The translations under genes were made by a program, and so were the position numbers. Of a stretch of DNA of 34,260 bases, positions 5,595-26,910 are shown in pieces (position 1 is the first letter of the stretch; each line of letters starts with the position of its first letter). Under the pieces are notes generated by a model, which saw only the letters and a program-made list of their open reading frames with translations, was not told the DNA's origin and ran no database searches. Source of the DNA: Fulvivirga kasyanovii (GTDB lineage Bacteria; Bacteroidota; Bacteroidia; Cytophagales; Cyclobacteriaceae); the NCBI RefSeq assembly GCF_009711405.1, contig NZ_SMLW01000653.1, forward strand, positions 2,341 to 36,600. Direction: 5' to 3'.

Positions 5595-5598
5595 TTCA

Positions 5599-5626: not shown

Positions 5627-5645
5627 GATTTTCAGTGTGTCATGT

Positions 5646-6084: not shown

Positions 6085-6109
6085 AATTGTCGATAACGAT
6101 CGATTACAA

Positions 6110-6240: not shown

Positions 6241-6244
6241 CAAC

Positions 6245-6273
6245 AAAAAAGCAGCCTTTGAGCTGCTTTTTTT
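6245..6273 (+). terminator. Terminator of the tRNA-like RNA
   Basis: AGCAGC-CTTTGA-GCTGCT (6250-6267), flanked by A's on the left and T7 on the right (67-73 of 6200s). It begins within 5 nt of the tRNA-like 3' end. Confidence 0.85.
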
Positions 6274-6504
6274 ATGCCCTTAGGCCTGTGTGAACAATAT
6301 TGGATCAAGCGTAAAACCTGTGGAGTAAATAGATTGGAAAGTAAAATAAGTAATGTGAAACTTACCACTGAAAATCAATAAACCACCCTTATTGTTATAT
6401 TATACGAGTTTGCCAACTGCTTTTGCCGACTGCTATTAACAACTGTCTGTCAGCAAAGAGGTAAAAATTTAGGGGCTCCCCAGAAATTCCACTTGATCCC
6501 CTTA
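6274..6504. other. AT-rich gap, no gene seen
   Basis: No supported ORF or RNA was found. Near the left gene's stop there is a small GGGG-CT-CCCC dyad (6472-6481) with A/T-rich flanks that could help end minus-strand transcription, but its 2-nt loop makes this weak. Confidence 0.4.
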
Positions 6505-7026: not shown

Positions 7027-7027
7027 C

Positions 7028-7627: not shown

Positions 7628-7656
7628 AGACTGTGATAAGGTTACGTTTTAAAATT

Positions 7657-8379: not shown

Positions 8380-8385
8380 TAACCG

Positions 8386-8393
8386 CAAATATA
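8386..8393 (-). promoter_or_regulatory. -7 promoter box of the 8379-6505 operon
   Basis: The minus strand reads TATATTTG, a full TAnnTTTG match, ending 7 nt before the chosen ATG. No clear TTTG lies 19-21 nt upstream (TTTTTAGG is the nearest), so only the -7 box is called. Confidence 0.45.
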
Positions 8394-8504
8394 GACTAAT
8401 TAAATATTAACCTAAAAAGATTATATAACTCCTGGTACAACCAGACCAATCAAGAATTTTGGCCACGTAATATTGCAGGAGTTAATGATCCTATATTTAA
8501 ACCT

Positions 8505-8528
8505 TAAAAAATGCACACGAAGATGCAT
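8505..8528 (-). terminator. Putative terminator of the ABC-exporter operon
   Basis: On the minus strand ATGCA-TCTTCGTG-TGCAT is followed by T6. It lies 18 nt past the stop of the ABC transporter gene. The stem is only 5 bp, so it may be weak. Confidence 0.5.
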
Positions 8529-8545
8529 AAGTCCCTGCAAAATAG

Positions 8546-10318: not shown

Positions 10319-10322
10319 AATT

Positions 10323-11069
10323 CTATTCAGGGAAAATCTCCCGGGGATATTTTACTGCTGTCAAAAATAAACCAGCAGCAGGAGCTGACGCACCTGCTTT
10401 TTTCCGGTCTTTACTTTCTATGATTTTTTTAAAAGCTTCTGTTCGAAGCTTTCCTTTACCGACATTTAATAAGGTGCCCACTATGGCTCTTACCATGCCT
10501 CGCAGAAATCGATTCGCGGTAATATGGAATATTAGCATATCACCCTCCACAACCCATTGTGCCTCCGTAATGTCACACACAAAGTTATTAACATCAGTCT
10601 TAACTTTGCTAAAACACTCGAAATCCTGCTTCCCGATTAATAACGAGGCAGCTTCATTCATAGTTGTGATATCCAGTGATTTTGGGTGGAAATAGCTCAT
10701 ATTTTGCAGGAACGGGTTCTTCCTCAGGGTTATCCGGTATTCATAACTTCTCGAAAGTGCTGAAAACCTGGCGTGTGCATCTTCCGAAACATGCAGAATA
10801 GCATTGATGCTGATGTCCGGAGGCAGATAGCTGTTAAGCTTATACTGCAGGTTATTCACCGGGATATCTTCCGGCAGATCAGCATGGAAATATTGCTGTG
10901 AACAATGCACACCCGTATCTGTACGGCCGCTACCCATTATGGGTATTTCTGCCCTTAATATTACGGCAAAGGCTTCTTCTATCAATTGTTGAACGGTAGT
11001 AGCATTTTGCTGTATTTGCCAGCCGTGGTAGTTTGTGCCATTATAGGCCACCTCAAAAAAGTATCTCAT
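10323..11069 (-). CDS. truA: tRNA pseudouridine(38-40) synthase TruA
   Basis: This 248-residue protein is of normal family length. TruA converts uridines 38-40 in the anticodon stem-loop of many tRNAs to pseudouridine in the cytoplasm. The catalytic motif GRTDTGVH is present with the nucleophile Asp51, and the C-terminal 'FLRGMVRAIVGTLL' helix is typical. ATG start overlaps the upstream CAT-like gene's stop by 4 nt (ATGA), implying translational coupling; the ABC exporter start is 4 nt after its stop. Confidence 0.95.
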   Translation of the reverse strand: MRYFFEVAYNGTNYHGWQIQQNATTVQQLIEEAFAVILRAEIPIMGSGRTDTGVHCSQQYFHADLPEDIPVNNLQYKLNSYLPPDISINAILHVSEDAHARFSALSRSYEYRITLRKNPFLQNMSYFHPKSLDITTMNEAASLLIGKQDFECFSKVKTDVNNFVCDITEAQWVVEGDMLIFHITANRFLRGMVRAIVGTLLNVGKGKLRTEAFKKIIESKDRKKAGASAPAAGLFLTAVKYPREIFPE

Positions 11070-11695
11070 GAGGCCTCCTTCATCAGGTTCTGGAACACGT
11101 CTACATACCTTCCTACATCATAGCCATCCATGAGGGCATGGTTAACGTGGATCGAAAGGGGCATTAGCTTAATTCCGTTATTTTCATACACCTTGCCGAA
11201 GCTTATTTTTGGAATGGAGTCAGACATGGCATAGTGTCTGGCGTGAGATACAGCGGTAAATTTGATCCAGGGTAGCGCAGAAAAATGGATCACATTTTCG
11301 CTGCTCGTGGCAGGCACCAGGGTAGTCTCTTGGCTTACACGTTCTATTTCCTGTGCGGCAGCGGTGTAGAAGTCGTCAAAAGAGGGTATATACTCCATAT
11401 ATGAAAAGCCAAAAGTGCCGTTTGGACGCGGTACAGTAGGCGAGGCATTGACTGTTTCATACCGGGCAACTTTATCGCCCTCTATTCGGTACTTAAATGC
11501 TTCTATTTGATTTGCTGCTGTTAAGGCTTTATGCAAATAATAAAGAAAGAAAGAAACACCTTTCCTTTTTGCTTCGGCGTATGCCATGGAGCAGTCTATT
11601 TCTACCGTGACTCCGAAAAAAGGTTCGTCAAAACCTTTGAAAAAGGAAAAGTGATCCTTTCGTTCCCACTGGTCAATGTCAAGGTAAGTTTTCAA
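11066..11695 (-). CDS. Chloramphenicol acetyltransferase-like (type A CAT family) enzyme
   Basis: This 209-residue protein is close to the 210-220 usual for CatA-type enzymes. The N-terminus 'WERKDHFSFFKGFDEPFF' is the family signature. The active-site motif is NHALMDG, keeping the general-base His186 and the structural Asp190 of the HHxxxDG motif, although the first His is Asn. The family transfers acetyl from acetyl-CoA to chloramphenicol, but many chromosomal homologs have other acceptors. The start is TTG, supported by alignment of the conserved N-terminus. It is coupled to truA (4-nt overlap) and follows the thiolase gene by 14 nt, so it is chromosomal-operon resident and not obviously mobile. 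Confidence 0.85.
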   Translation of the reverse strand: MKTYLDIDQWERKDHFSFFKGFDEPFFGVTVEIDCSMAYAEAKRKGVSFFLYYLHKALTAANQIEAFKYRIEGDKVARYETVNASPTVPRPNGTFGFSYMEYIPSFDDFYTAAAQEIERVSQETTLVPATSSENVIHFSALPWIKFTAVSHARHYAMSDSIPKISFGKVYENNGIKLMPLSIHVNHALMDGYDVGRYVDVFQNLMKEAS

Positions 11696-13747: not shown

Positions 13748-15640
13748 ATGGCTGAAAAAGGTACTATTTCGATTCACACGGAAAATATTTTTCCGATTAT
13801 CAAGAAGTTTCTGTACTCTGATCATGAGATCTTTTTAAGAGAGTTGGTTTCTAATGCAGTAGATGCTACCCAGAAACTGAAAAGGTTGTCATCTCTTGGC
13901 GAGCTGAAAGAAGATATTGGTGATACTACAGTAGAAGTAAGCTTTGATAAAGAGAAAAAAACGATAACTGTAAGCGATAGAGGTATCGGTATGACTGCCG
14001 AGGAGATTAAGAAGTACATCAACCAGATTGCTTTCTCAGGCGCCACCGAGTTTGTAGAGAAGTTTAAAGACAAAGGTGATGCAAAAGACATCATCGGTAA
14101 ATTCGGTCTTGGCTTCTACTCAGCTTTTATGGTAGCCAAAAAGGTGGAGTTGATCTCCAAATCATACCAGGACGGCACAGAAGCTGCCAAATGGACATGC
14201 GATGGCTCGACAGAGTTTGAAATTTCCGAAGCGGAAAAAACTGACAGGGGTACGGACGTTATTCTGCATATTGCTGACGACTCGGAAGAATTCCTTGACG
14301 AATGGAGACTGAAGTCAATCCTTGAAAAATACTGTAAATTCCTGCCTGTACCCGTAAAATTCGGAACAGAAGAAAAAAGGGAAGAGGATGGCAAGGACGA
14401 CGAAGGGAAGCCGAAATATAAAACTATAACACAAGACCGCATCATCAATGATACGGAGCCGTTGTGGACTAAAACCCCTGCTGACCTGAAAGATGAGGAT
14501 TACCTGAAATTCTACAGGGATCTTTACCCTATGTCAGAAGACCCGCTTTTCTGGATTCACCTGAACGTAGACTATCCTTTCAATCTGACAGGTATTTTGT
14601 ATTTCCCTAAAGCTAAAAATGACTTTGAAGTACAAAAGAATAAAATCCAACTATACTCGAGACAGGTATTCATCACTGATGAGGTGAAGGACGTTGTGCC
14701 TGAGTTCCTCATGTTGCTGCATGGTGTTATCGATTCGCCTGATATTCCGCTTAACGTATCAAGAAGCTACCTGCAGTCAGACAGCAGTGTTAAGAAAATC
14801 AATAACCACATTACCAAAAAGGTTGCGGATAAGCTTACAGAGTTATTTAAGAATGACAGAAAGGCTTATGAAAGCAAGTGGGACGATATTGGCATTTTTG
14901 TGAAGTATGGTATGCTCAGTGAGGATAAGTTCTATGAGAAAGCCAAAGATTTTGCTTTACTTAAAAACACCGAAGGAGCTTTTGCTACCCTTGATGAGTA
15001 CAAGGAAAAGGTAAAGTCTAGCCAGGAAGATAAAGACGGAAACCTCATTTACCTGTATACCTCAGATGCAGCGAAGCAAGATACCTACATACAAGCTGCT
15101 AAAGCAAAATCTTACGACATCCTTTTGATGGATGGTATCATAGACAGTCATTTTGTGAACTTCCTGGAGCAAAAGCTGGAGAAAACCCAGCTTAAGCGTG
15201 TGGATGCTGAGACTGTGGATAAGCTCATTGATAAAGACGAGAAAATTGAAAGTGTGCTTAGCAAGGACGAGGAGGAGAAGGTAAAAGCTATTTTTGAAAA
15301 AGCGGTCAACAACAAGAGCATGAATATCTCTGTTGAGTCTCAATCGCCTGATGAAATGCCTGTTACTATCACCATGTCAGAGTTCATGCGCAGGATGAAA
15401 GACATGGCCAAAATGGGCGGTGGCGGCTATGCTATGATGGGTAACATGCCCGATCAGTTTAACCTGACGGTTAATGGCAACCACGCAATAATCGGGAAGA
15501 TCCTGAGGGCTAAAAAAGAGGAGAAAAAAGAGCAATTGGCCAAGCAGGCATATGATTTGGCTATGCTTTCCCAAAATATGCTTTCAGGCGCTGATTTGAC
15601 TAATTTTATAAAAAGAAGCATAGAGCTTGCAGGGGAATAA
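13748..15640 (+). CDS. htpG: Molecular chaperone HtpG (Hsp90)
   Basis: This 630-residue protein is full length for bacterial Hsp90. The N-terminal GHKL ATPase domain shows 'EIFLRELVSNAVDA' (Glu32, Asn36), 'DRGIGMT' (Asp77) and 'GKFGLGFYSAFMVA'. The middle domain (about 240-480) includes 'NVSRSYLQSD' (about 338), with the arginine that contacts ATP gamma-phosphate. The C-terminal dimerisation domain has the Met/Gly-rich stretch 'MRRMKDMAKMGGGGYAMMG' (about 540-560), typical of Bacteroidota HtpG. It is a cytoplasmic dimer helping fold clients under stress. ATG start; monocistronic with a strong terminator. Confidence 0.97.
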   Translation: MAEKGTISIHTENIFPIIKKFLYSDHEIFLRELVSNAVDATQKLKRLSSLGELKEDIGDTTVEVSFDKEKKTITVSDRGIGMTAEEIKKYINQIAFSGATEFVEKFKDKGDAKDIIGKFGLGFYSAFMVAKKVELISKSYQDGTEAAKWTCDGSTEFEISEAEKTDRGTDVILHIADDSEEFLDEWRLKSILEKYCKFLPVPVKFGTEEKREEDGKDDEGKPKYKTITQDRIINDTEPLWTKTPADLKDEDYLKFYRDLYPMSEDPLFWIHLNVDYPFNLTGILYFPKAKNDFEVQKNKIQLYSRQVFITDEVKDVVPEFLMLLHGVIDSPDIPLNVSRSYLQSDSSVKKINNHITKKVADKLTELFKNDRKAYESKWDDIGIFVKYGMLSEDKFYEKAKDFALLKNTEGAFATLDEYKEKVKSSQEDKDGNLIYLYTSDAAKQDTYIQAAKAKSYDILLMDGIIDSHFVNFLEQKLEKTQLKRVDAETVDKLIDKDEKIESVLSKDEEEKVKAIFEKAVNNKSMNISVESQSPDEMPVTITMSEFMRRMKDMAKMGGGGYAMMGNMPDQFNLTVNGNHAIIGKILRAKKEEKKEQLAKQAYDLAMLSQNMLSGADLTNFIKRSIELAGE

Positions 15641-15662
15641 CCTGTAAACATGACTGAACCAG

Positions 15663-15694
15663 GCCACCCGGAACTTTTCGGGTGGCTTTTTTAT
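15663..15694 (+). terminator. Rho-independent terminator of htpG
   Basis: GCCACCCG (15663-15670), loop 15671-15678, CGGGTGGC (15679-15686), then T6. Perfect 8-bp GC-rich stem, 22 nt after the stop codon. Confidence 0.93.
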
Positions 15695-15750
15695 TTTTGA
15701 GATGAAAATAAAAAATGGTTATTTACGTTGCCAAATAATAAACGAGCTCA

Positions 15751-16569
15751 ATGTTTCTGAAATATTTAGTTTTACTATCCACTACATTTTTGCTGGTTAC
15801 ATCGCTGCATGCCCAGGAAGCCGATCCTGAGAGCACGGACAAGATGTTTACTATTGATACCCCCATTACCATTGATCTGGAGGAGGATGAAAAGGAAGAA
15901 GAGTATGTAGAGCCGAAAAAGAAGAAACGCAAGAAGAATGTTTTTTACGGCCTTAAAACCAAAAAGCGCTACACTCAAAAAGGGAGCGGAGATGGAAAGA
16001 CTTATGAGCTTTTCTATGTGCTGAAAGAATATGTAGAACCAGATCCCTACGTCAGGGATGTTTACTGGATAGATTACCGTCGTGGAAAAATCAGAAGTGA
16101 AGGAGAGGTGGACAAGGAGTATGGAGCAATTCTTCATGGCCCTTATAAAAAAATGCAGGGAGACCAGGTACTGGAAGAGGGCATATTTTACAAAGGAATG
16201 AAGCATGGGCGCTGGGTAAGGTATGATAAGAATGATATTCTCATTGATAAGGAAAAATATTACAAAGGATGGCCTAAAGAGTCACTCGTAAGCTACTATG
16301 ATCAAAAAAGGGAGAAAATGAAAGAAATTATCCCTATTGAATACGGAGAAAAAGAAGGGAACTACTATTACTTTCACAATAATGGTAAGGTAGCAGTGAA
16401 GGGTGAATATAAATGGGACAATAAAGTGGGAGACTGGGTGGAGTACTATCCTACCGGTCGCAGAAAGAAAATAATCCGGTATTCTAAAGACCCTTTCGAT
16501 AAACAAAGCAAGCCCTATATCTACAAAGAATGGAATAAACGAGGCAAACTCGTTTATGAAAGAAGATAA
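15751..16569 (+). CDS. Secreted YwqK-type (MORN-like) repeat protein
   Basis: This 272-residue protein has a Sec signal peptide (1-21, ending LHAQ) and an acidic then very basic stretch (EEDEKEEEYVEPKKKKRKK, about 46-65). From about residue 80 come repeated units of the type 'G...HGPYKK', 'YKGMKHGRWVRYD', 'YGEKEGNYYYFHNNGKVAVKGEY' (split over 205-227), 'GDWVEYYPTGRRKK'. These are the GxxxGxWxxYYxxG repeats of the YwqK antitoxin/MORN-variant family, common in secreted Bacteroidota proteins. The repeat probably forms a beta-hairpin ladder. No toxin partner is adjacent, so the antitoxin name should not be transferred. Confidence 0.8.
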   Translation: MFLKYLVLLSTTFLLVTSLHAQEADPESTDKMFTIDTPITIDLEEDEKEEEYVEPKKKKRKKNVFYGLKTKKRYTQKGSGDGKTYELFYVLKEYVEPDPYVRDVYWIDYRRGKIRSEGEVDKEYGAILHGPYKKMQGDQVLEEGIFYKGMKHGRWVRYDKNDILIDKEKYYKGWPKESLVSYYDQKREKMKEIIPIEYGEKEGNYYYFHNNGKVAVKGEYKWDNKVGDWVEYYPTGRRKKIIRYSKDPFDKQSKPYIYKEWNKRGKLVYERR

Positions 16570-16595
16570 GCCCTCTGTAACATATTGTATTAATG

Positions 16596-16620
16596 CTTGT
16601 AAAATATTACAAGTGTAATA
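16596..16620. promoter_or_regulatory. Overlapping dyad operator candidate 1
   Basis: CTTGTAA-AATA-TTACAAG (16596-16613) is an inverted repeat with 7-bp arms; it overlaps a second dyad, TATTACA-AG-TGTAATA (16605-16620). It lies 186 nt upstream of the ethylene-receptor-like kinase and 26 nt after the previous gene. The symmetry suits a dimeric regulator. A weak terminator of the upstream gene is the alternative, but no clean T-run follows. Confidence 0.45.
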
Positions 16621-16705
16621 ATTTTAATTCAACACCCGTTCTTGTTTTTGTTACATACTAGATTGCTTTTATACATCAATAATTTGTTGTAACTATTATT
16701 TCGCC

Positions 16706-16719
16706 TGTAAAATCTTACA
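16706..16719. promoter_or_regulatory. Operator candidate 2
   Basis: TGTAA-AATC-TTACA repeats 13 of 14 bases of the core of candidate 1 (TGTAA-AATA-TTACA at 16598-16611). Its distance to the kinase start is 86 nt, a normal place for a regulator-binding site. Confidence 0.45.
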
Positions 16720-16805
16720 TGCGCCAATTTTGCCTATTTCCGTAAGTGTGAACATTTTGTTAGATTACTTTATTACTAGTTTTCTGATACGGCAATAACA
16801 ATACG

Positions 16806-19340
16806 ATGATGAGAGGTTTTCGGAGGCATTTTTTTGTTTGTTGCGTTCTGTTAATATTGTTGGTATTCAATGTTTTAGCTTATGCTAAGTCAGATGAAAA
16901 ACCAATTACTTGTCAGGTTTCCAATGAGGTTGTTGATGTAAAGGTTCAGTCAGAATTTTTCTCGGGACTTTTGAGTACTGATAGTTGGCCTGCGAGATGG
17001 AATTGCGGCATTTGGACACCCTTTCATGGGTGGTTGTACATTGTTTCTGATTTCCTGATCTGGCTGGCTTACTTTATGATTCCTTTAATTCTTGGGTATT
17101 ATTTGTATAAAAAGCAGGATGGGATTCCTTTCAAGTTCATTTTTCTGCTGTTTATAGCCTTTATCCTATTTTGCGGACTGACCCATCTTATTGATGCGAT
17201 TATATTTTGGTTTCCCGTCTACAGGCTCAGCGCTTTCGTCCGGTTTCTTACGGCCATGGTTTCAATGGGTACTGTGTTGGCCCTGGTAAAAGTCACCCCG
17301 GAAGTATTAAAATATAAAAGTCCCGAAGCTCTTGAAAAGCTGGTGTCTGAGCTCACCGCCCTTAATCGAAGGTTAAAGGATGAAATACTGCAGCGTGAAA
17401 GGGCAGAAAATGAGCTGAAGCGGCTTAATGAAGACCTGGAGCGCAAAGTTGATGAACGCACTGAGGACCTGAAGGCTTCAAACAGCATTTTAAAACGGAC
17501 AAATGAGCTTTTTCAATCAGCCCAGGAAGCCGGTAAAATAGGTGTGTGGCAAATGAATGTGAAGGAAAGCTCCATATTTTGCTCTGAAGAAGTATATCGC
17601 ATTTTGGAGTTAACCAGCATAACAGACTTCAACTTTGAAAAAGCCCTCGGCTTTGTGCATAAAGACCATCGCAACAAGGTCAGAGAGGCAATAGCCCGGG
17701 CCGAAAGAACCTGTGAGAGCTATGATCTGGAAGTGAAATTAATAACGGCCAAAGAGAATAACATTTGGGTCAGAATAGTTGGTCTGCCCGTAGTTAAAGA
17801 TGGTAAAATGGTTTCATTGAGAGGCCTGCTAATGGATATAGACCTGGCCAAAACTTCCCAGGAGAAAATGGAAGCGAGCAAAAGGGTGCTCTCACTGGCT
17901 TTGGAAGCTGGCGAGATTGGTGCCTGGAACTGGAATATCAAAACCGGTTCGCTGCAATGGGATGCTTATATGCACAATTTGATGGACCACCCGAAAGAGA
18001 ATTTCAAGGGCATAATACAGGACTTTACTGAACGCATACACCCTGATGATATGGATTTGGTAAGCGATGCGGTAGGTGATACTATAAGGAAGGATGTTAA
18101 GTATGATATTGTTTACAGAATACTTTCCCGTGATGGGCAGACAAGGATCTTGCACTCCAAAGGTGAAGTTACAAAAGATGAGAACGGCGAACCGGTGTCC
18201 ATGATAGGCATTTGTATGAACATAACTGCCCAAAAGCTTTATGAACAAAACCTTAAGGAGAGCGAACAACGGTTTAAAGCCACTATTGATTACAGTCCGA
18301 TAGGGGTGGCTCTCTTGGGAACTGATGGCGCGCTGATCAAAGTAAATAAGGCATTGACACATATGCTTGGCTATAGTGAAGCTGAGCTGTTAAAGCTAGG
18401 CCTCCATAAAATAACCTACACTGAGGACCGCAACCTTGACCTGGAGCAAAGGAAAAATTTACAGCAGGGCAACATTCATACTTACCAGTTAGACAAGAGG
18501 TACTTAAACGTTGATGGCTTGCCTATCTGGGTTCAGCAGAATGTTTCTGCGGTGCGGGATGAAGCTGGTGACATAAAATATTTTATTGCTCAGATCATGG
18601 ACATTACCGAAAGAAAAATGGCAGAGAAGCGTATTCAGGAGGTAGTTAGGCAGCGCACGGCGCAACTGGAAGCCACCAATCACGAACTGGAAGCTTTTAG
18701 CTATTCTGTTTCTCATGATCTGCGCTCTCCGCTTCGAAGCATCCACGGTTTCAGCCAGGCGTTGATGGAAGACTATGCAGATCAGCTTGATGATATAGGT
18801 AAAGATTATTTGAAAAGGGTGTCATCGGCCAGCGTGAGGATGGGAAGGTTGATAGATGATCTGCTTGCCCTCTCAAGGATATCCCGGCAGGAGATAAGTT
18901 TTGAGCCTGTTGATGTGTCAGCCCTTGCCTCGCATGTGGCTGAGCATTTAAACAATGACCAGTACACCCATACCGAATTTACCGTGACCCCGGGCTTAAA
19001 GGCTTCTGCCGATAAAGGTTTGCTAAATGTGGCGCTGGAGAATTTATTTGAAAATGCCGCCAAATACTCCAGAAAGGTGCCAAATCCAAAGGTAGAATTA
19101 GGAGTTGAAACAATTAATGACCGTCAGGTATTTTATATAAAAGACAACGGAGTAGGATTTGACATGAAATATTCCGATAAGCTTTTTGGCGCTTTTCAGA
19201 GACTGCACGGAGACAATGAATTTGAAGGGACAGGAATAGGCTTGGCCACGGTTAAGCGTATTATTCACCGGCATGGCGGAGAGATATGGGCTGAAAGTGC
19301 CGTAGACAGGGGATCAACGTTTTATTTTACCTTAAATTGA
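16806..19340 (+). CDS. Histidine kinase with ETR1-type ethylene-binding domain and three PAS domains
   Basis: This 844-residue protein starts with an N-terminal hydrophobic signal/anchor (about 9-26). Then comes a three-helix membrane domain (about 78-165) that matches the plant ethylene receptor domain. ETR1 residues Asp25, Tyr32, Ile35, Pro36, Ile62, Cys65 and His69 correspond to Asp82, Tyr89, Ile92, Pro93, Ile120, Cys123 and His127, with the key strings SDFLIWLAYFMIP and FCGLTHLID. In ETR1, Cys65 and His69 hold the Cu(I) that binds ethylene. A coiled coil (172-230), PAS domains (about 232-345, 358-475, 485-602), HisKA with His637 (SVSHDLRSP) and HATPase (N-box ENLFENAAKY, DNGVGF, GTGIGLA) follow. 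It should autophosphorylate and pass phosphate to the next genes' receivers. There is no attached receiver or GAF domain, unlike ETR1. First gene of a tight operon. Confidence 0.9.
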   Translation: MMRGFRRHFFVCCVLLILLVFNVLAYAKSDEKPITCQVSNEVVDVKVQSEFFSGLLSTDSWPARWNCGIWTPFHGWLYIVSDFLIWLAYFMIPLILGYYLYKKQDGIPFKFIFLLFIAFILFCGLTHLIDAIIFWFPVYRLSAFVRFLTAMVSMGTVLALVKVTPEVLKYKSPEALEKLVSELTALNRRLKDEILQRERAENELKRLNEDLERKVDERTEDLKASNSILKRTNELFQSAQEAGKIGVWQMNVKESSIFCSEEVYRILELTSITDFNFEKALGFVHKDHRNKVREAIARAERTCESYDLEVKLITAKENNIWVRIVGLPVVKDGKMVSLRGLLMDIDLAKTSQEKMEASKRVLSLALEAGEIGAWNWNIKTGSLQWDAYMHNLMDHPKENFKGIIQDFTERIHPDDMDLVSDAVGDTIRKDVKYDIVYRILSRDGQTRILHSKGEVTKDENGEPVSMIGICMNITAQKLYEQNLKESEQRFKATIDYSPIGVALLGTDGALIKVNKALTHMLGYSEAELLKLGLHKITYTEDRNLDLEQRKNLQQGNIHTYQLDKRYLNVDGLPIWVQQNVSAVRDEAGDIKYFIAQIMDITERKMAEKRIQEVVRQRTAQLEATNHELEAFSYSVSHDLRSPLRSIHGFSQALMEDYADQLDDIGKDYLKRVSSASVRMGRLIDDLLALSRISRQEISFEPVDVSALASHVAEHLNNDQYTHTEFTVTPGLKASADKGLLNVALENLFENAAKYSRKVPNPKVELGVETINDRQVFYIKDNGVGFDMKYSDKLFGAFQRLHGDNEFEGTGIGLATVKRIIHRHGGEIWAESAVDRGSTFYFTLN

Positions 19341-19350
19341 ATAACCAGAT

Positions 19351-19782
19351 ATGTCAGGAAGAATATTATTAGTCGAGGATAACGAAGATGATATTACGCT
19401 TACGTTAAGAGCTTTAAAAAAGAAAAATATTGCTAACGAAGTCACTCTTGCCCGTGATGGTGTAGAGGCTTTGGATATTCTTTTTGGGCGTAATGGCAAA
19501 GAGCGGATTAAACCTGCTTTGATTCTTCTCGACCTTAAATTGCCGAAGCTTGACGGGTTGGAAGTTTTAAAAGAAATAAGGCAGCACGAAAGTACAAAAG
19601 GGCTGTCGGTGGTAGTATTAACCACATCAAATCAGGAAGAAGATATCATCAAAAGCTACTCACTGGGAGCTAATAGCTATATCAGAAAGCCTGTGGATTT
19701 TGTCCAGTTCACGGAAGCAGTAGGTCAACTTGGTCTTTATTGGCTTGTGTTAAATGAACCTAACCCACAGATAAATGAATGA
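19351..19782 (+). CDS. Single-domain response regulator, Rcp1 type
   Basis: This 143-residue protein is a lone receiver domain with no output domain. Acidic pocket Asp10/Asp13, phospho-acceptor Asp61 (ILLDLKLPKLDG), Thr91 and Lys113 (IRKPVDF) are all present. The sequence style (LVEDNEDD at the start, 'KPVDFVQFTEAV' near the end) is that of Rcp1-like regulators paired with phytochromes and other PAS/GAF kinases. It starts 10 nt after the ethylene-receptor-like kinase and overlaps the next gene by 8 nt, so it is probably the direct phosphate acceptor of that kinase, acting as a shuttle in the cytoplasm. Confidence 0.92.
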   Translation: MSGRILLVEDNEDDITLTLRALKKKNIANEVTLARDGVEALDILFGRNGKERIKPALILLDLKLPKLDGLEVLKEIRQHESTKGLSVVVLTTSNQEEDIIKSYSLGANSYIRKPVDFVQFTEAVGQLGLYWLVLNEPNPQINE

Positions 19783-21238
19783 TTCGTTAAGGATATTGGT
19801 CATAGAAGACTCGGAAGATGATTATGAATTGTTATTAAGGGAAATCAAAAAGGGTGGTTTCCTTACAGAGGCTGAGCGCGTAGAAACCGTTGAAGACCTG
19901 GAAAGATGTTTGTCTGAGCAATGGGATATTGTAATAAGCGATAATCGGTTACCGCGTTTGAATGCCCCAACAGCGCTGAGCGTGACACGATCCAGAAATA
20001 AAAACGTTCCTTTTTTTATTGTTTCCGGTACCATCGGAGAGGAAGCCGCAGTGGAAGCCATGCGGGCTGGGGCCAATGATTATATATTAAAAGGCAACCT
20101 CAAGCGGTTAATACCTGCAATAGAAAGGGAGCTTAAAGAGGCAAACAACAGGTTGAAGCGGCAAGCAATAGAGCAAAAGCTGGCAAAAAGCCAGAAGATG
20201 TATCAGTTTCTCTCTGGTAGCATTGAGGATGCCTTCCTGGCGCTGGATAAAGACCTGAAAGTGATCCACTGGAATGGAGCAGCAAAAAAGGAATTTAATA
20301 TCAGGGATAAAAATATATTGGGAGCACATATATTTTCCATGTTTCCCGAATGGCTGGACTCGAAGATTGAAAGAAAAATTAAAAATGTTCAGCAAAAGAC
20401 TAAGTCTGAACACCTGGCTTTTCAGTTCGGGCGAGACTATTTCGACGGGAGCATTTATCCGTCTGAAGGAGGGATATCTATTATAGTAAGAAAGGTAACG
20501 GAAAAGAAACAGGCGGAAGAAAATTTAAAAAAGATCAATAATGAACTGGAAACCCTGATGTATCGTATTTCCCATGATCTTAAAGGACCGGTAGCCTCAA
20601 TAATGGGCTTGATCAACATCGGAAAAATGGACTTTTCCAACGATGCATTCCAACAATATTTAGGAATGCTGGACAAAAGCACGGTACAACTAAAAAATAC
20701 GCTGGACGAACTCCTGAATTTATCAAGGATCAAACAAGGTCAGATAATGCCAGAGGAAGTAGTTCTGGAAGAGGTCATTAAGGATATAATGGATGGACTG
20801 AAATACAATGAGGGGTTTGGTGAAGTGGAACTGCAACTCCGTCTGAACAGTTCTCATACAGTATATAATGACAGAAGGCTGCTCACGTCAATTTTTCAAA
20901 ACCTGCTTGAGAATGCCATCAAATACAGGAGAAAGTCGCGTAATCATAAATCCTGGATAGTGGTCGCTGCCAACAAGGAAGAAGGAGAACTTTTCGTGCA
21001 GGTAATTGACAATGGGCAGGGCATATCAGAAAAGCTTCAGGATAAAGTTTTTGATATGTTTTACAGGGCACATGAGTTTTCTTCCGGCTCCGGCCTGGGT
21101 TTATATATAGTTAAAAATGCCATTGAAAAGATCAATGGCTCAATAATGCTCGAGAGCAGGAAAGATGAGGGATGTAAGTTTGATGTTATAGTTCCTGACT
21201 GGAAACAACCACCAGCAACCAATTATAATGAAAATTAA
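19775..21238 (+). CDS. Receiver-PAS-histidine kinase hybrid
   Basis: This 487-residue protein has no membrane segment. The receiver domain (about 5-122) has phospho-acceptor Asp56 (VISDNRLP) and Lys106. A PAS-like domain (about 138-245) comes next, then HisKA with His267 (YRISHDLKGPVAS) and HATPase (ENAIKY, DNGQGI, GSGLGLYIV). With the receiver in front of the kinase, input is probably by phosphorylation from another kinase, so this looks like a relay protein. Its receiver is closely related to that of the next gene (shared 'EEAAVEAMR.GANDY' and 'PAIERE'), suggesting tandem duplication. Its kinase core resembles the small kinase at 25591. It overlaps both neighbours (8 and 11 nt). Confidence 0.9.
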   Translation: MNDSLRILVIEDSEDDYELLLREIKKGGFLTEAERVETVEDLERCLSEQWDIVISDNRLPRLNAPTALSVTRSRNKNVPFFIVSGTIGEEAAVEAMRAGANDYILKGNLKRLIPAIERELKEANNRLKRQAIEQKLAKSQKMYQFLSGSIEDAFLALDKDLKVIHWNGAAKKEFNIRDKNILGAHIFSMFPEWLDSKIERKIKNVQQKTKSEHLAFQFGRDYFDGSIYPSEGGISIIVRKVTEKKQAEENLKKINNELETLMYRISHDLKGPVASIMGLINIGKMDFSNDAFQQYLGMLDKSTVQLKNTLDELLNLSRIKQGQIMPEEVVLEEVIKDIMDGLKYNEGFGEVELQLRLNSSHTVYNDRRLLTSIFQNLLENAIKYRRKSRNHKSWIVVAANKEEGELFVQVIDNGQGISEKLQDKVFDMFYRAHEFSSGSGLGLYIVKNAIEKINGSIMLESRKDEGCKFDVIVPDWKQPPATNYNEN

Positions 21239-23597
21239 AGGAGAAGAGGAGTTTGTCGAAATGCAGATAAATAGATGGAAACCTATCAATATATTGATTA
21301 TTGAGGATTCCGAGGATGACTATGAGCTTATTAAAAGAAGGATTCGCCGCGAAGGATATAATTTAAACACCATGCGGGTAGAAACTGCCGAAGAATATGA
21401 AGCAGCCCTTGTTGATGAAGACTGGGACGTAGTGATCAGTGATAACTCTTTGCCCCAGTTCAATGCCAGATCGGCATTGGAGATCACCAGAAAAAAATAT
21501 CCTTTTTTGCCATTCATCATTGTATCTGGCACCATAGGTGAGGAGGCTGCCGTGGAAGCCATGAGGCTGGGTGCTAATGATTATTTATTAAAAAATGACC
21601 TGGCCAGGCTTACACCTGCTATAGAGCGGGAAATAAGAGATGCAAGGACTATTAAGGCAAAAAATGCCGCTGACCGCGCTTTAAAGGAGAGCCAGGAGCG
21701 CTACAGATTGCTTGCGGAGAACATACAGGACCTGGTTTGCCTGCATAGTCCGGACTCTACCTACCTATGGGTAGGGCCGTCTACAGATCGCATTTTAGGG
21801 TATCATGCCGAAGAGCTGATTGGCCTGAAACACCTGGACCTGATCCATCCTGATGACCTTAAAGATCAGGAAATCAACCTTTTTGAGCAGAAAGGGGAGA
21901 ATAATGGGAAGCCCTTTTCATACCGTATGAGGCGCAAAGACGGTGTATATATCTATCTTGAAACGATGTTACAGCATGTTTATGAGGGGGGCCAGTTGAT
22001 CAGAATTGTGAGCACATCCCGTGACATCACCGAGCAGAAGCTTGCGCACAACCTGCTTACAGAAAGCGAGGCCAAATACCAGGGAGTGATAGAATCGATT
22101 GCCGAAGGTCTTATTTTATATGATGACCGTGGGCATATCGTGACATTCAATAAAAGCGCCTCAAGAATATTAAGAACAAAAACCACAAGCGTCCGAAAAT
22201 TTGAGAAGGAGCTGACGGAAAGGTATCGTTTTTTTAAACCGACTATGGAAGTGTTTCCATTAGATAATTTACCCTCTAAAGTTACACTGCGCACGGGTAA
22301 ACCATGCTCCCAGGTTATTATGGGTGTAAAAGACCGGGGTGATTTGATCTGGTTATCGGTCAATTCAGAGCCCTTTTTGCAGCCTAATGATCGTATAGGT
22401 GTGGTTGTTTCTTTTTCTGATATTACAGAGCAAAAGGTTTATGAAGACCGTGTTACAGCCGTAGCCAGAGAACTGACAACATTGATCGATACGGCCAATG
22501 CCCCGATTTTTGGGATTGACTGGAACGGGCGAATCAACGAATGGAACCAGGTGACGGCAAAAATTACCGGCTACTCCAAAACCGAAGTGCTGGGCAAAAA
22601 GCTAATCGATGAATTTATCCTTGACGGATACAAAGTGGCAGTCACTGATTTGCTTAAAAATGCATTGAGAGGCAAAGAGGTGACAAACTACGAGTTGCCT
22701 ATCTATACCAGAACAGGCAAGGTGGTTACCATCCTCTTTAACGCTGCTCCCCGCAGAAACCTCGACTCAGAGATTATTGGTGTTATAGGTGTGGGGCAGA
22801 ATATAACAGAGCTGATTGAGTACCGCGAGAGGTTGGAAATGAAAGTCGCTGAGCGCACCAAGGAACTGAATGAGGCCTTACAAAAAGAAAAGGAGCTGGT
22901 GGCTCTCAAGTCAAAGTTCGTTTCCATGGCCTCGCACGAATTCAGGACTCCACTGTCCACAATTACCTTTGCTACCAACTTCATTAAGCGGTATAAATCC
23001 AAACTTGGATTTGATGAAATAGAACGGAAGCTGGACAAAATAGAGGAGCAGGTAGGCCATATGACGTATTTGCTGGACGATGTACTTCTCATTGGCAAAA
23101 GCGAATCCGGGAAGATCAAGCTGCACCGCGTAGTCATCAATATCAAAGATTTCTGCAAAAAAATTATAGAGGAAGTTACACACAGCACCAAGCAGAGCCA
23201 TAAGGTTTTGTTTTCTATTGTAACTGAGAAGAAAGAAATTGCCGTAGATGAAAAACTTTTGCGCAATATATTGATTAACCTTTTAACCAATGCCATTAAG
23301 TTTTCTCCGGGAAAAGATAAGGTCCTTCTGGATGTTATATGTGCACATGGGTTGCTGAATATGCAGGTAAAAGACTGGGGGATGGGTATAGAAAAAGAGG
23401 ACCAGGAAAAGATATTTGAACCGTTCCACCGTACAAATAGTGCAGGTGCTATTCAGGGCACCGGGTTAGGGCTTTCCATAGTTAAGAAAGCCGTGGAGCT
23501 ACAGCAAGGGTCAGTGGAAGTTGACAGTGAGGTAGGGAAAGGAACCAAAATAAAGATTCAGATTCCATTAGTCGATGAAAAAGATATTAGTAATTGA
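21228..23597 (+). CDS. Receiver-triple-PAS-histidine kinase hybrid
   Basis: This 789-residue cytoplasmic protein has a receiver (about 20-135) with acceptor Asp72 (VISDNSLP), then PAS1 (about 155-272), PAS2 (about 280-403) and PAS3 (about 412-532). A short coiled coil (KVAERTKELNEALQKEKE) leads to HisKA with His570 (SMASHEFRTP) and HATPase (NLLTNAIKFS, DWGMGI, GTGLGLS). The HisKA type (SHEFRTP) differs from the SHDLKGP type of the previous gene. None of the PAS domains has the LOV cysteine motif; bound ligands cannot be predicted. A second ATG at 21261 is an alternative start. It overlaps the previous gene by 11 nt and the next by 23 nt. Confidence 0.9.
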   Translation: MKIKGEEEFVEMQINRWKPINILIIEDSEDDYELIKRRIRREGYNLNTMRVETAEEYEAALVDEDWDVVISDNSLPQFNARSALEITRKKYPFLPFIIVSGTIGEEAAVEAMRLGANDYLLKNDLARLTPAIEREIRDARTIKAKNAADRALKESQERYRLLAENIQDLVCLHSPDSTYLWVGPSTDRILGYHAEELIGLKHLDLIHPDDLKDQEINLFEQKGENNGKPFSYRMRRKDGVYIYLETMLQHVYEGGQLIRIVSTSRDITEQKLAHNLLTESEAKYQGVIESIAEGLILYDDRGHIVTFNKSASRILRTKTTSVRKFEKELTERYRFFKPTMEVFPLDNLPSKVTLRTGKPCSQVIMGVKDRGDLIWLSVNSEPFLQPNDRIGVVVSFSDITEQKVYEDRVTAVARELTTLIDTANAPIFGIDWNGRINEWNQVTAKITGYSKTEVLGKKLIDEFILDGYKVAVTDLLKNALRGKEVTNYELPIYTRTGKVVTILFNAAPRRNLDSEIIGVIGVGQNITELIEYRERLEMKVAERTKELNEALQKEKELVALKSKFVSMASHEFRTPLSTITFATNFIKRYKSKLGFDEIERKLDKIEEQVGHMTYLLDDVLLIGKSESGKIKLHRVVINIKDFCKKIIEEVTHSTKQSHKVLFSIVTEKKEIAVDEKLLRNILINLLTNAIKFSPGKDKVLLDVICAHGLLNMQVKDWGMGIEKEDQEKIFEPFHRTNSAGAIQGTGLGLSIVKKAVELQQGSVEVDSEVGKGTKIKIQIPLVDEKDISN

Positions 23598-23937
23598 TGA
23601 CACGCTGCACCTTCTGGAAGAGATAAGGGATTTACTGCAAATGGAAGGATATGATGTAATAACGGCATATGATGCTTTTGATGGGATGCGCAAAATAAGT
23701 ACTACCAACCCGGACCTGATCATAACAGATCTGCTGATGCCGGAGATGAATGGCTTTGAGTTGATCACTAAGATCAGGTCAATAGACAAACATCAGCTTA
23801 CACCGATCATTGTGCTTTCTGCCCAGGCCACCAAAGAAACTGAGCAAAAGGCCAGAGAGTACAGTGCCGATGCTTACATTAGAAAACCTTGCAGTGCTGA
23901 CCAGCTTATTTCATCGATAGAAAAACTGCTTAAATAA
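23575..23937 (+). CDS. Single-domain response regulator (CheY-like)
   Basis: This 120-residue protein is a lone receiver with acidic residues Asp8/Asp9, phospho-acceptor Asp52 (IITDLLMPEMNG), Ser82 and Lys104 (YIRKPCS). There is no output domain. It starts inside the end of the preceding kinase gene (23-nt overlap), so translation is coupled, and it is the natural partner of that kinase. It may act on a downstream kinase or as a phosphate sink. Confidence 0.92.
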   Translation: MKKILVIDDTLHLLEEIRDLLQMEGYDVITAYDAFDGMRKISTTNPDLIITDLLMPEMNGFELITKIRSIDKHQLTPIIVLSAQATKETEQKAREYSADAYIRKPCSADQLISSIEKLLK

Positions 23938-23945
23938 AAATTAAA

Positions 23946-24602
23946 ATGGGACATATTCGCGTACTACTGGTAGATGACCACGCCCTGATGAGAGAAGGTG
24001 TTGCATCTATGCTTAAAAATGTAGAATTCATTGATGTTGTAGGCAAAGTGGAAAGTGGAGAGGAGGCCATAAACGCTGCGCAGGAGCTTTACCCGGATAT
24101 CATACTCATGGACATCATGATGAAGGGGATGACCGGCATAGAGGCGGCGCGCTGGATAAAAGAGCAAAACAGCAATATCAGGATCATATTATTGTCAGGG
24201 GAAGTAAACCAGGACTATATATCCTTAAGTGCAAAAGTCGGCGTCAATGGGTATTTACCCAAAGACGTAAGCAAAGAGGCACTGGTCGATGCCATAAAAA
24301 AAGTATATGCCGGCGAAAAGTACTTTAGCCCCTCGATTATGAATATTGTCTTTGAGCAGTTTTATAACCAGGAGGCAGATGAAAAGAAACCTGCTCAGAA
24401 GAGCAAAGAGCTTACCACAAGGGAATTTGAGGTACTGGAGCAGGTAGCTATGGGTAAATCAAACCAGGAAGTAGCAGATGCCTTGTTTATAAGTATAAAA
24501 ACAGTGGAAACACACAAAACAAATATACTCTCCAAACTCGGACTTAAGAATACTGCAGAACTCGTTAAGTACGCGATCAAAAACAACATCATTGAGCTTT
24601 AA
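23946..24602 (+). CDS. NarL/FixJ-type response regulator (receiver + LuxR HTH)
   Basis: This 218-residue protein has a receiver (1-125) with Asp10/Asp11, phospho-acceptor Asp56 (ILMDIMMKGMTG), and a conserved Lys (YLPKDVSKE, about 105). A linker leads to a LuxR-type helix-turn-helix (about 152-216, 'LTTREFEVLEQVAMGKSNQE' then 'ISIKTVETHKTNI'). It binds DNA as a dimer when phosphorylated. It is the only DNA-binding output in the cluster, so it is likely the end point of the phosphorelay. The TGTAA-N4-TTACA dyads upstream of 16806 are possible targets, by inference only. It starts 8 nt after the preceding receiver gene. Confidence 0.93.
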   Translation: MGHIRVLLVDDHALMREGVASMLKNVEFIDVVGKVESGEEAINAAQELYPDIILMDIMMKGMTGIEAARWIKEQNSNIRIILLSGEVNQDYISLSAKVGVNGYLPKDVSKEALVDAIKKVYAGEKYFSPSIMNIVFEQFYNQEADEKKPAQKSKELTTREFEVLEQVAMGKSNQEVADALFISIKTVETHKTNILSKLGLKNTAELVKYAIKNNIIEL

Positions 24603-24674
24603 CCTCTGAGAATGTAGAGGTTATGCGGGTTTACCCCGATAAAACCCTCGGGGGAACTCACCAGCCCCCTGAGA
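24601..24674 (+). other. Cluster of strong hairpins after the regulator gene
   Basis: AACCTCT/AGAGGTT (24601-24622) overlaps the stop codon, followed by CCCCGA/TCGGGG and then CTC-GGGGG...CCCC-GAG at about 24648-24674. There is no T-run, so this is not a classic terminator. It may be an mRNA-stability or processing element between the regulator and the outer-membrane gene. Confidence 0.4.
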
Positions 24675-24838
24675 ATTCCCCTAGCCCACGCTGACAAAAA
24701 CCTGATCGTAACCCGTATAACATTTCAAAAAGTGCCTTATCTCTGCTTTTAAGCCTAATTTCATAAGTGTACTTCTGATTTTTCCTTTTCAGGAATTCCC
24801 TCATAAAAACGGTCATGGTTATCATCAAATTTGCATAG

Positions 24839-25573
24839 ATGATTTTAGTAGCCATGACAATTTTTTGTATTTCATTTAAGCATTTTTTAAGAGCATTGGT
24901 CATTTTTTTTGTAATGGCTTTTCCATTTTTTGAGGCCAGCGCTCAATTTGAACCGGAAGAGGTGGTAGAGGAGGAGAGTAATTCCATTTTTAGTCATAGG
25001 GGTATGGAGGCGTCCTTCGGCATGAAAACTTTTGTTATAGAAAGTGACGTGCCGGAGTTGGATGCCCTCCAGGTTTATGAAGAAGGTGGAAGCGCCGCCT
25101 TTATCTTCGGTAATTCTTACAGTCGCATTGTTGCCAGAGCTGTAGGGCTTTATTATTCCAACGCTGCCACAAAGCGAACAATTGATCTGTTTGAAGTTGA
25201 GATCAATAGTAATATCTACCTGCTAAAGGCAATGCAGTTGCCTTCCCGGAAAGCAGATGCCTATGTGCTGGCGGGGCTTAACAATCAAAGCATAAAATTT
25301 TACGGACATTATATAGATGCTGCCGAGCGGGCGAAGCAAGGGAAAAGCCCGGGCAGGGAGCCATTTTTAGGCAGTATTAACACCACCAATGTTAATCTGG
25401 GCCTGGGCGTGGAGTATCGCATTCAGGCTGAGAATGACTTTGTCCATTTTTTTGTGGAGGCAAAAACCAGCCTTCAACTGGGGGAGTCTGCTAATGTCAA
25501 AAGCCTGGAAAACACCAGCATTAAAGACCCTTATGCGATCAATGTAGGAGTGAGATTCGGCCGAAGAAAATAA
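24839..25573 (+). CDS. Outer-membrane beta-barrel-type protein
   Basis: This protein has up to 244 residues; ATG at 24854 (residue 6) is an equally good start. A signal peptide with basic start (FKHFLRA), a hydrophobic core and an EASA-Q cleavage site ends near residue 35. An acidic stretch (EPEEVVEEES) follows, then alternating strand-like segments ending 'DPYAINVGVRFGRRK', typical of small outer-membrane barrels. No family is recognised. It lies after the phosphorelay genes with a 236-nt gap and 17 nt before a small kinase, so it may be a target or sensor component of the same system. Confidence 0.7.
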   Translation: MILVAMTIFCISFKHFLRALVIFFVMAFPFFEASAQFEPEEVVEEESNSIFSHRGMEASFGMKTFVIESDVPELDALQVYEEGGSAAFIFGNSYSRIVARAVGLYYSNAATKRTIDLFEVEINSNIYLLKAMQLPSRKADAYVLAGLNNQSIKFYGHYIDAAERAKQGKSPGREPFLGSINTTNVNLGLGVEYRIQAENDFVHFFVEAKTSLQLGESANVKSLENTSIKDPYAINVGVRFGRRK

Positions 25574-25590
25574 CCTAACCTATTAAAATA

Positions 25591-26322
25591 ATGAGAACCA
25601 CACTTAAAATTAAAGAGATGAATAACCTGCTCAACCAAGAGCTTTCTGAGGCAAACTCAGTACTCGATAAGTTTGTCTATAGTTGTTCTCATGACCTTAA
25701 GGGACCTTTGGCTTCCATAAAGGGGTTGATCCGCCTGGCGGAAAAATCAACCAGGGACGATATCACAGATGAATGCCTGCACCTGATCAACGAGAGTGTG
25801 GTGCGAATGGATAACTTCCTGAAATCCCTGGAGTCTTTCGTAGGCAACGCCCGGGGCCCGATCGTGAACACTACAATCTACTTTAATGAGAGCATTGCCA
25901 AAGTGCTGGATCATTACCTGGACTACGCAAGGGCAAATAAAATAAAGTTCCGCGTACGTGTGAAACAAGACCAGAAGTTTGTATCGGACCAGTTGCGTAT
26001 CACTCTTATACTGGAGCACCTCATTCAAAATGCCGTGGTTTTCCAGGATTTGAAAAAGACGGAAAAGTTTGTGGATATAGATGTGAAAGTTACTCCCAAG
26101 CATGCCACAATAGAAGTATGCGACAATGGAGAAGGCATTTCAAAAGAAAACATCAATGACATATTTCAGATGTTTTACCGGTCATCCGAGTCTTCCAAGG
26201 GTTCAGGCCTTGGTCTGTACATTGTTCAGGAGGCGGTAAGCAAACTGGGAGGTGAAGTTTCAGTAGCCTCTTCCAAAGGAGTAGGAAGCAATTTTATAGT
26301 TAAAATACCAAACAATTTATAA
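25591..26322 (+). CDS. Small histidine kinase without sensor domain
   Basis: This 243-residue protein is only a kinase core: a short coiled coil (1-25), HisKA with His34 (YSCSHDLKGPLAS), and HATPase (about 130-243; N-box EHLIQNAVVF, DNGEGI, GSGLGLYIV). There is no membrane segment, PAS or receiver. Its core resembles that of the 19775-21238 product, so the two are probably paralogs. Without a sensor it should take cues through a partner, such as one of the single receivers. It lies 17 nt after the outer-membrane gene and 12 nt before a lipoprotein gene, suggesting co-transcription. Confidence 0.9.
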   Translation: MRTTLKIKEMNNLLNQELSEANSVLDKFVYSCSHDLKGPLASIKGLIRLAEKSTRDDITDECLHLINESVVRMDNFLKSLESFVGNARGPIVNTTIYFNESIAKVLDHYLDYARANKIKFRVRVKQDQKFVSDQLRITLILEHLIQNAVVFQDLKKTEKFVDIDVKVTPKHATIEVCDNGEGISKENINDIFQMFYRSSESSKGSGLGLYIVQEAVSKLGGEVSVASSKGVGSNFIVKIPNNL

Positions 26323-26334
26323 ATACTTTTTTAG

Positions 26335-26910
26335 ATGAAAAACGCGATACCACTATTCGGGCTGTTATTATTTTTTACAGCATGCAATGTCGAGATTGAC
26401 TCCCCTTTTGCAGGTGATGATCAGAAAGTTTACATCATTAAGCAAGGCCAGCACGAGTCTAACAGAACCATTAAATCTTTTAAGGGAGACGTACTGGGCT
26501 TTAAAGCCAGCTTTGACGAGTCTGCCATTTATGAAACAAAAAGGGAGGAGAACCAGGCCGATATCAACAAGCTCATGGGCTTTTCTGATTGTAACAGTCA
26601 TCACCATGAAAATAGCGCACGCTTTGGCTGGAGATGGTATAATGACAAGCTTGAAGTACACGCCTATTGCTATGTGAATGGAGACAGAAAAATAGAATAT
26701 GTAACTACAGTTGCACTTAATGAAATGAATGATTACCAGATTAGTATCATTGATAACAAATATGTGTTTACCGTAAACGGGGCTTCCAGGGTAGAAATTA
26801 ACAAAAACCCGAATTGCTCAGGTGATGTAAACTATATGCTATTTCCATATTTTGGAGGTGATGAGCCCGCACCGCACGACATTAGTGTAGCAGTGCATAC
26901 CGATCAGTAG
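26335..26910 (+). CDS. Hypothetical lipoprotein
   Basis: This 191-residue protein has a lipoprotein signal peptide (MKNAIPLFGLLLFFTAC) with lipidated Cys17. The mature part has 'HHHENSARFGWRW' (about 88-100), 'YCYVNGDRK' and 'YQISIIDNKYVFTVNG', giving the feel of a beta-sandwich like the concanavalin/laminin-G fold; this is an impression from strand pattern only. Two Cys pairs could form disulfides in the envelope. Last gene of the plus-strand cluster; its stop overlaps the end of the convergent yraN gene by 7 nt. Confidence 0.7.
   Translation: MKNAIPLFGLLLFFTACNVEIDSPFAGDDQKVYIIKQGQHESNRTIKSFKGDVLGFKASFDESAIYETKREENQADINKLMGFSDCNSHHHENSARFGWRWYNDKLEVHAYCYVNGDRKIEYVTTVALNEMNDYQISIIDNKYVFTVNGASRVEINKNPNCSGDVNYMLFPYFGGDEPAPHDISVAVHTDQ

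Follow-up and report, generated by a model that had tools for sequence, protein, structure and literature searches.

A candidate ETR1-type ethylene receptor kinase heading a six-gene signalling cluster in Fulvivirga kasyanovii, and its split and pump-fused relatives in Bacteroidota

Ethylene Receptors Described in Plants and Bacteria

Plant ETR1 carries a GAF domain, a kinase and a receiver on one chain, and its ethylene site can also be occupied by other olefins. Its ethylene-binding residues, reportedly found by alanine scanning and named in an initial annotation of the DNA described here, are the seven positions Asp82, Tyr89, Ile92, Pro93, Ile120, Cys123 and His127. It has been reported that RAN1, the plant copper ATPase, binds ETR1 directly, with a KD of 33 nM in vitro for ETR1 1–157 (PMC6656775), while the accessible part of a review states that the idea that ethylene perception grew from copper transport has received no further support so far (PMC10452086).

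According to the accessible text of PMC11819568, bacterial ethylene binding by an identified receptor with a physiological effect is reported only for Synechocystis and Azospirillum; the carriers of candidate receptors named there are cyanobacteria and proteobacteria, and putative receptors in other bacterial phyla are already stated in print. SynEtr1 (slr1212) of Synechocystis, a histidine kinase that binds ethylene and has a response regulator encoded downstream, possesses a chromophore-binding GAF domain and also senses light (PMC11819568, PMC7700396). AzoEtr1 of Azospirillum brasilense is a 525-aa protein of ETBD-PAS-kinase arrangement with D35, C75, H79 and K98, whose residues 1–130 show saturable ethylene binding in Pichia (yeast) and whose D35A and C75A variants do not rescue biofilm formation (PMC11819568). 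In the genome sequence of A. brasilense Sp7 we read the corresponding 525-aa ORF and found D35, Y42, I45, P46, I72, C75, H79 and K98, so that our comparison of ligand residues is independent of the plant sequence. Since AzoEtr1 is described with PAS alone, GAF is not a defining part of bacterial receptors.

As for Bacteroidota, the accessible part of the review on ethylene mentions Bacteroidetes for ACC deaminase (PMC10452086), and a literature search, outside which most subscription papers lay, gave no paper on ethylene receptors in Bacteroidota or Fulvivirga. The six-gene relay, the exported cysteines and the split and pump-fused forms described below were not met in the literature searched, in which the split form was not sought by name, and among the matches listed, judged by title or the start of the abstract, there was no receptor-ATPase fusion. 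These features are thus likely to be new in print.

The Candidate Receptor Kinase of Fulvivirga kasyanovii

The window, i.e., the whole 34,260-nt stretch of F. kasyanovii DNA that was analysed (contig NZ_SMLW01000653.1), encodes a protein that we read, from sequence comparison and with a probability of roughly 0.6, as an ETR1-type ethylene receptor in the membrane that depends on Cu(I) and feeds a branched phosphorelay. Its features are as follows.

16806–19340, forward strand: ETR1_N-PAS-PAS-PAS-HisKA-HATPase_c sensor histidine kinase, 844 aa, ATG start (ORF calling, Pfam)
16806–16886, forward strand: signal-peptide-like segment, residues 1–27, with a charged start, a hydrophobic core and A-x-A before K28 (by eye)
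16911–16913, forward strand: Cys36 in the N-terminal extension, presumably extramembrane (sequence survey)
17004–17006, forward strand: Cys67 (W-x-C-G), directly before helix 1 (sequence survey)
17025–17312, forward strand: ETR1_N domain with three predicted helices, residues 74–169, with D82, Y89, I92, P93, I120, C123 and H127 (Pfam, alignment)
17322–17510, forward strand: signalling-helix or coiled-coil-like stretch, about residues 173–235 (structure model; coiled coil by eye)
17511–18641, forward strand: three PAS domains, limits approximate (Pfam)
18690–19334, forward strand: HisKA (phospho-acceptor His637) and HATPase_c, with H, N and G boxes (Pfam, alignment)

The initial annotation had proposed an ORF with three PAS domains and a kinase, and a profile search as one check on its N-terminal domain. 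Pfam returned the same domain set, with PAS_3 in three stretches, PAS_9, HisKA at residues 629–693 and HATPase_c at 739–843; neither GAF nor receiver was listed anywhere in the 844 residues, so that PAS stands where plants and SynEtr1 have GAF. Residues 74–169 were assigned to ETR1_N (PF25487, E 6e-32, 110.2 bits against a cut-off of 27), which was the only family listed there and which supports the ethylene-receptor reading. The kinase core is intact, HisKA and HATPase_c both having their motifs, the H, N and G boxes among them. Over the whole chain, residues 1–844 align with the protein of Fulvivirga marina (best segment 80% identical) and residues 2–844 with that of F. imtechensis (58%); the protein of another genus mate, L185, is likewise similar throughout. 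A structure model of low confidence (mean pLDDT 66.6, pTM 0.38) places helices at 72–101, 109–133 and 137–168, where receptors of the ETR1 type have three transmembrane helices ahead of the signalling part, followed by a helix at 173–224 that belongs, from residue 181 onward, to a block with pLDDT 84–94. A search of solved structures with the ETR1_N domain gave no match at E 1.

Compared with the known systems, the window protein shares with plant ETR1 the seven ligand residues and, as predicted, a domain of three helices, and with SynEtr1 the character of a bacterial sensor kinase followed by a response regulator. It also resembles the pair AzoEtr1 and AzoRRetr1, in which ETR1_N, PAS and kinase are likewise combined without GAF, the seven residues are present and a single-domain receiver gene adjoins; AzoEtr1 differs in having one PAS domain rather than three, no signal-like extension and one receiver gene named downstream (PMC11819568, accessible text). 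The wiring, first described as new compared with ETR1, is so only in part: PAS in place of GAF was already known from AzoEtr1, and the new elements are the six-gene relay and the exported cysteines, which the initial annotation had not noted.

In the proposed mechanism, the signal-like segment would place the N terminus outside the cytoplasmic membrane, and Cu(I) would be held within the membrane by Cys123 and His127. Ethylene binding could then shift helix 3 and the coiled coil, and the change, passing through the three PAS domains, would alter the phosphorylation of His637, from which phosphate might reach the neighbouring receiver (Asp61), two REC-PAS kinases, or both. Each of these two kinases would add input from signals that it senses itself, and the combined input would set a LuxR-type regulator. 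Cys36 and Cys67 on the exported side would probably aid the delivery of copper to its site or, joined as a disulfide, hold the dimer together.

Survey, Distribution and Phylogeny

Relatives were collected in a survey of 89 genes, consisting of the ETR1_N loci from a contig scan with the whole kinase, from searches of the phylum, family and genus, and from six of 19 plasmid records. Short or duplicate loci (L001, L002, L045–L064, L085–L113, L174–L184) were left out, as were L188, L193 and L144, which are the same as L003, L004 and L005; the weakest match of the family search (G424:C64) has no ETR1_N match in the survey. Ten loci retrieved by the order search were examined apart from it, and loci from a search of 164 genomes in the order of the pump fusions lie outside it. 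The whole-kinase scan gave 42 loci, of which L003, L004 and L005 alone contain ETR1_N; the others were rejected as receptor relatives, their likeness being confined to the PAS and kinase parts.

At E 0.001, the genus has ETR1_N matches in 8 of its 15 genomes, the family in 48 of 196 (47 above the cut-off), the order in 58 of 291 (57 above the cut-off) and the sampled Bacteroidota in 21 of 395, these samples overlapping one another. The domain thus occurs in a phylum outside the cyanobacteria and proteobacteria named as carriers. The seven genus genomes without a match are counted against the ethylene-receptor reading. A second ETR1_N match in the F. kasyanovii genome is cut, lying at the end of a 5.5-kb contig.

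In a domain tree of 83 sequences, which rests on 111 columns and has many weak forks, the window lies in an all-Bacteroidota branch of 46 rows (support 100/98), its nearest rows being the genus mate L185, F. marina (L003) and F. imtechensis (L004). The remainder consists of a plant row and 36 others, i.e., six proteobacterial or cyanobacterial ones and other Bacteroidota. The diverged copies L172, L159, L158, L081 and L156 and the cut copies L069 and L082 were left out of the tree. In L153 and L155, ETR1_N is joined to a kinase of the HisKA_2/HWE class, not HisKA.

Ligand Residues and Their Conservation

All seven ETR1 residues are in place, as first proposed. Their spacing, 7-3-1, 27, 3-4 in the window and 7-3-1, 26, 3-4 in ETR1, confirms the single additional residue that had been noted between the first two helices. 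The domain is about 36% identical to that of plant ETR1, and tblastn aligns it with 102 residues of AzoEtr1 at 43% identity (40% in the alignment); an identity of about 40% to a tested ethylene binder favours the ethylene-receptor reading. Among 83 Bacteroidota sequences, the seven ligand columns rank 2, 4, 7, 8, 9, 10 and 20 of 111 by entropy (Mann–Whitney p 3e-5), so that six of them belong to the ten most conserved, and Ile92, Pro93 and Ile120 are conserved as strongly as Cys123 and His127. Such conservation again supports the reading. On the other side stand Asp82, the weakest ligand column, with 67 Asp and 9 Asn in 81 Bacteroidota rows, and the loss of one or both of the Cys/His pair in 7 of the 89 surveyed copies.

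Alternatively, the same Cu(I) site might serve to sense a different small molecule, unsaturated or gaseous, such as acetylene, CO or propene. The acceptance of other olefins by the plant site is in keeping with this, as is the marine habit of Fulvivirga, which is not known to have a plant link. However, the seven residues match those of both ETR1 and AzoEtr1, which are tested ethylene binders, and nothing in the results points to a different ligand, so that we regard this alternative as quite improbable.

Whether the domain is better kept than its neighbours depends on the comparison. Against F. imtechensis, identity is 76% for the ETR domain and 37, 50 and 61% for the PAS domains, which argues for the ethylene-receptor reading; against F. 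marina it is 80% identical with PAS domains at 78–82%, i.e., not better kept, and against L185 it is 92% with PAS domains at 75–86%, i.e., little better kept, and the latter two comparisons count against it. This bears on the idea that the three helices are a relic, a mere anchor and dimer module, with sensing left to the PAS domains. L190, L172 and L159, without an intact Cys/His pair, do retain the kinase and neighbouring relay genes, but the rank of six ligand columns within the ten most conserved and the better-kept domain in F. imtechensis, though not in F. marina, make a relic very improbable.

L190 (genome G586; receptor at 6192–7973) has degenerate ligand residues, DCIPICY, in which His127 is replaced by Tyr and Tyr89 by Cys; both Cys67 and the extension Cys are gone, though its cluster of six genes is kept. 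The cluster can therefore persist without the ligand site, which also counts against the ethylene-receptor reading. With the window's cluster, a degenerate site and the exported cysteines lost, L190 forms a natural control.

The N Terminus and the Presumably Exported Cysteines

The additional hydrophobic segment that had been noticed ahead of the domain is present, and its appearance is that of a signal peptide. Its mean hydropathy is 3.16 over the best 15 residues, and it is kept yet drifting, with identities of 78, 48 and 30% to L185, L003 and L004; owing to this look and this drift, a fourth functional helix was rejected. Between the segment and helix 1 lie about 30 residues with one cysteine, Cys36, and then W-x-C-G with Cys67.

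Of the 79 copies that have the Cys/His pair, 73 also have Cys67, which is absent from all seven copies in which one or both are lost, some of the latter being close kin; the count leaves out L124, L069 and L082, whose ends are cut, and thus covers 86 of the 89 genes. The six pair-bearing copies without Cys67 are four from one hybrid-kinase branch and two pump fusions, and a third pump fusion, outside the count, lacks it too. Likewise, among the 25 copies with at least 40 residues before the domain, pump fusions excluded, a cysteine beyond residue 20 of the extension occurs in 21 of 22 with an intact pair and in none of three with a lost pair; L165, scored as without it, has a Cys at residue 18. 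The Fisher p values of 3e-7 (Cys67) and 0.002 (extension Cys) are inflated, since related sequences were taken as independent.

We read this as a link between the exported thiols and the copper site, in which copper relay and disulfide are indistinguishable by such counts. That Cys67 tracks the Cys/His pair supports the ethylene-receptor reading, against which are set the kinship behind the p values and the gap at the Cys67 column in the ETR1 sequence; by that gap, plants do without Cys67.

The Six-Gene Cluster and Its Surroundings

The receptor kinase heads six genes in the same direction, separated by 10, −8, −11, −23 and 8 nt, and a response regulator gene adjoins it. The genes that follow are listed below.

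19351–19782, forward strand: 143-aa single-domain response regulator, 10 nt downstream of the kinase gene, with Asp61 as its likely phospho-acceptor (Pfam, alignment)
19775–21238, forward strand: REC-PAS-HisKA-HATPase_c, 487 aa, 8-nt overlap with the preceding gene (Pfam)
21228–23597, forward strand: REC-PASx3-HisKA-HATPase_c, 789 aa, 11-nt overlap (Pfam)
23575–23937, forward strand: single-domain response regulator, 120 aa, 23-nt overlap (Pfam)
23946–24602, forward strand: 218-aa DNA-binding response regulator of REC-GerE (LuxR/NarL) type, the likely output (Pfam)

From the gene spacing, we infer that the cluster is transcribed as a single unit. Promoter-like sites in 15600–26400 are at chance level (24 against 23.8 in shuffles), terminator-like sites number 16 against 9.8 (sd 2.6), and neither was taken as evidence.

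The same six-gene order is common to six genomes of the genus: the window, L185, L004, L003, L136 and L190. In L185 and L004 the cluster is whole; in L136 and L190 the receptor has one PAS domain and the last gene runs off the end of the stretch, with 190 and 91 residues visible. The LuxR-type regulator is 97% identical in L185, 94% in L003, 91% in L004, 57% in L136 (190 aa) and 68% in L190 (91 aa). The sharing of the cluster, with its genes overlapping or nearly so, and the presence of a receiver gene also after AzoEtr1 favour the ethylene-receptor reading. In F. marina (L003), the third gene of the cluster is reduced to pieces of 174 and 60 aa; its kinase is therefore dispensable, which is counted against the reading. 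Shorter related sets, with receptor, receiver and REC-PAS protein and in some cases a further receiver protein, occur in L138, L148, L162, L143, L166 and L169.

Pfam named no ethylene-making enzyme among the 29 window genes compared with it, which is also counted against the reading. A strong terminator-like hairpin lies at 15661–15688, 3′ of an HSP90 gene and upstream of a 272-aa gene. On the 3′ side of the cluster, 24839–26322 encodes a protein of 244 aa that belongs to no Pfam family and a kinase of 243 aa that lacks a sensor domain; relatives of both also lie 3′ of the cluster in F. marina and F. imtechensis. A protein of the chloramphenicol acetyltransferase family (PF00302) is encoded at 11066–11695, between thiolase and pseudouridine synthase genes.

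Putative Split Receptors

The split and pump-fused relatives are a more surprising part of the results than the window protein itself. In 14 genomes, ETR1_N forms a stand-alone protein of 143–193 aa, the kinase being encoded by a gene of its own. Eleven of these genomes belong to the family (L120–L130), one more to the genus (L187) and two to other families of the order (L247, L249); the 143-aa protein of L124 is cut by the contig end. In every one of the 14 the kinase gene follows at a distance of no more than 8 nt or with an overlap, and in all but L123, L124 and L249, i.e., in 11, it is followed in turn by a single receiver gene. By eye, the ETR1_N proteins end in a coiled-coil-like tail, and the kinases begin with a related region of four hydrophobic stretches (alignment of 13, together with the L187 sequence). 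The seven ligand residues are kept in 13 of the 14 copies, L130 having Leu for one Ile, and the 12 split copies in the tree form one clade (support 99/95). With sensor and kinase as separate proteins, each could be assayed alone or in combination with the other.

L248 was left out of this count, since it runs into the edge of its contig. L246 (G722) was rejected as a split receptor, no kinase gene being found beside its ETR1_N gene, which at 6261–6929 encodes an N terminus resembling a signal peptide, then ETR1_N, in which none of the seven residues is missing, and a coiled-coil-like tail.

Putative Pump-Fused Receptors and the Probable Role of Copper

In two genomes, a copper-type P-ATPase is fused in frame to ETR1_N-PAS-PAS-kinase in a single ORF of 1532 aa, as established by ORF and sequence comparison.

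L068 (G184), 5440–10038: pump fusion ORF
L070 (G373), 6389–10987: pump fusion ORF

The two are identical at 1434 of 1532 positions. For the L068 protein, the one compared with Pfam, the domains are HMA, E1-E2 ATPase, HAD hydrolase, ETR1_N (residues 868–963), PAS, HisKA and HATPase_c. The ATPase motifs are CTNC, TGES, CPC, DKTGT, HP and GDGIND, which we take to be the marks of a copper P1B pump. In G656 (L197), of the same genus, the fusion is 62.8% identical over 1029 aa and the contig ends before the kinase. The pump fusion thus occurs in three of four genomes of that genus and, at the level of the family, in three of 80; elsewhere in the order (164 genomes), the frames with ETR1_N have 556–615 aa. 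All three fusions have Asn at the Asp82 position and keep the Cys/His pair. RAN1 and ETR1 are two proteins in plants, whereas here pump and receptor are one protein in two Bacteroidota genomes and are fused in the visible part in the third; the window protein is not fused.

The fusion of a pump to the same domain in three relatives ties copper supply to ETR1_N and, as far as sequence can tell, supports copper as its cofactor, which favours the ethylene-receptor reading; just as well, however, the fused protein may combine a pump with a sensor of copper. In the latter sense, the window protein itself might be a copper or redox sensor, whose domain binds Cu(I) and whose kinase signals how far copper is loaded or how the exported thiols stand in redox terms, not ethylene. 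The fusions in G184, G373 and G656 and the conserved exported cysteines would suit such a sensor, but no P-type ATPase adjoins the window's receptor or others (the fusion ATPase, compared with the ORFs of the surveyed loci, matched only the two full fusions), and residues counted as ethylene-binding, Ile92, Pro93 and Ile120, are conserved like Cys123 and His127. We therefore consider a copper or redox sensor unlikely.

With an ethylene receptor as the preferred reading of the window protein, the three forms together could tentatively be seen as modular copper-fed sensing of the ethylene type in Bacteroidota, an idea that we consider less likely than not. In it, the domain would dock on a dedicated membrane kinase as a separate subunit, or be fused to a pump, or have exported cysteines in place of a pump, which in the lineage of the window would hand copper to the site from outside. 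Such modularity predicts that pump fusions keep the pair and lack Cys67, as all three do; four unfused copies of one hybrid-kinase branch, however, show the same pattern. A natural pump-receptor fusion would support a copper-transport origin of ethylene perception, and it can be expressed and tested. Both full fusions lie downstream of two genes that by eye resemble those of cytochrome bd oxidase subunits.
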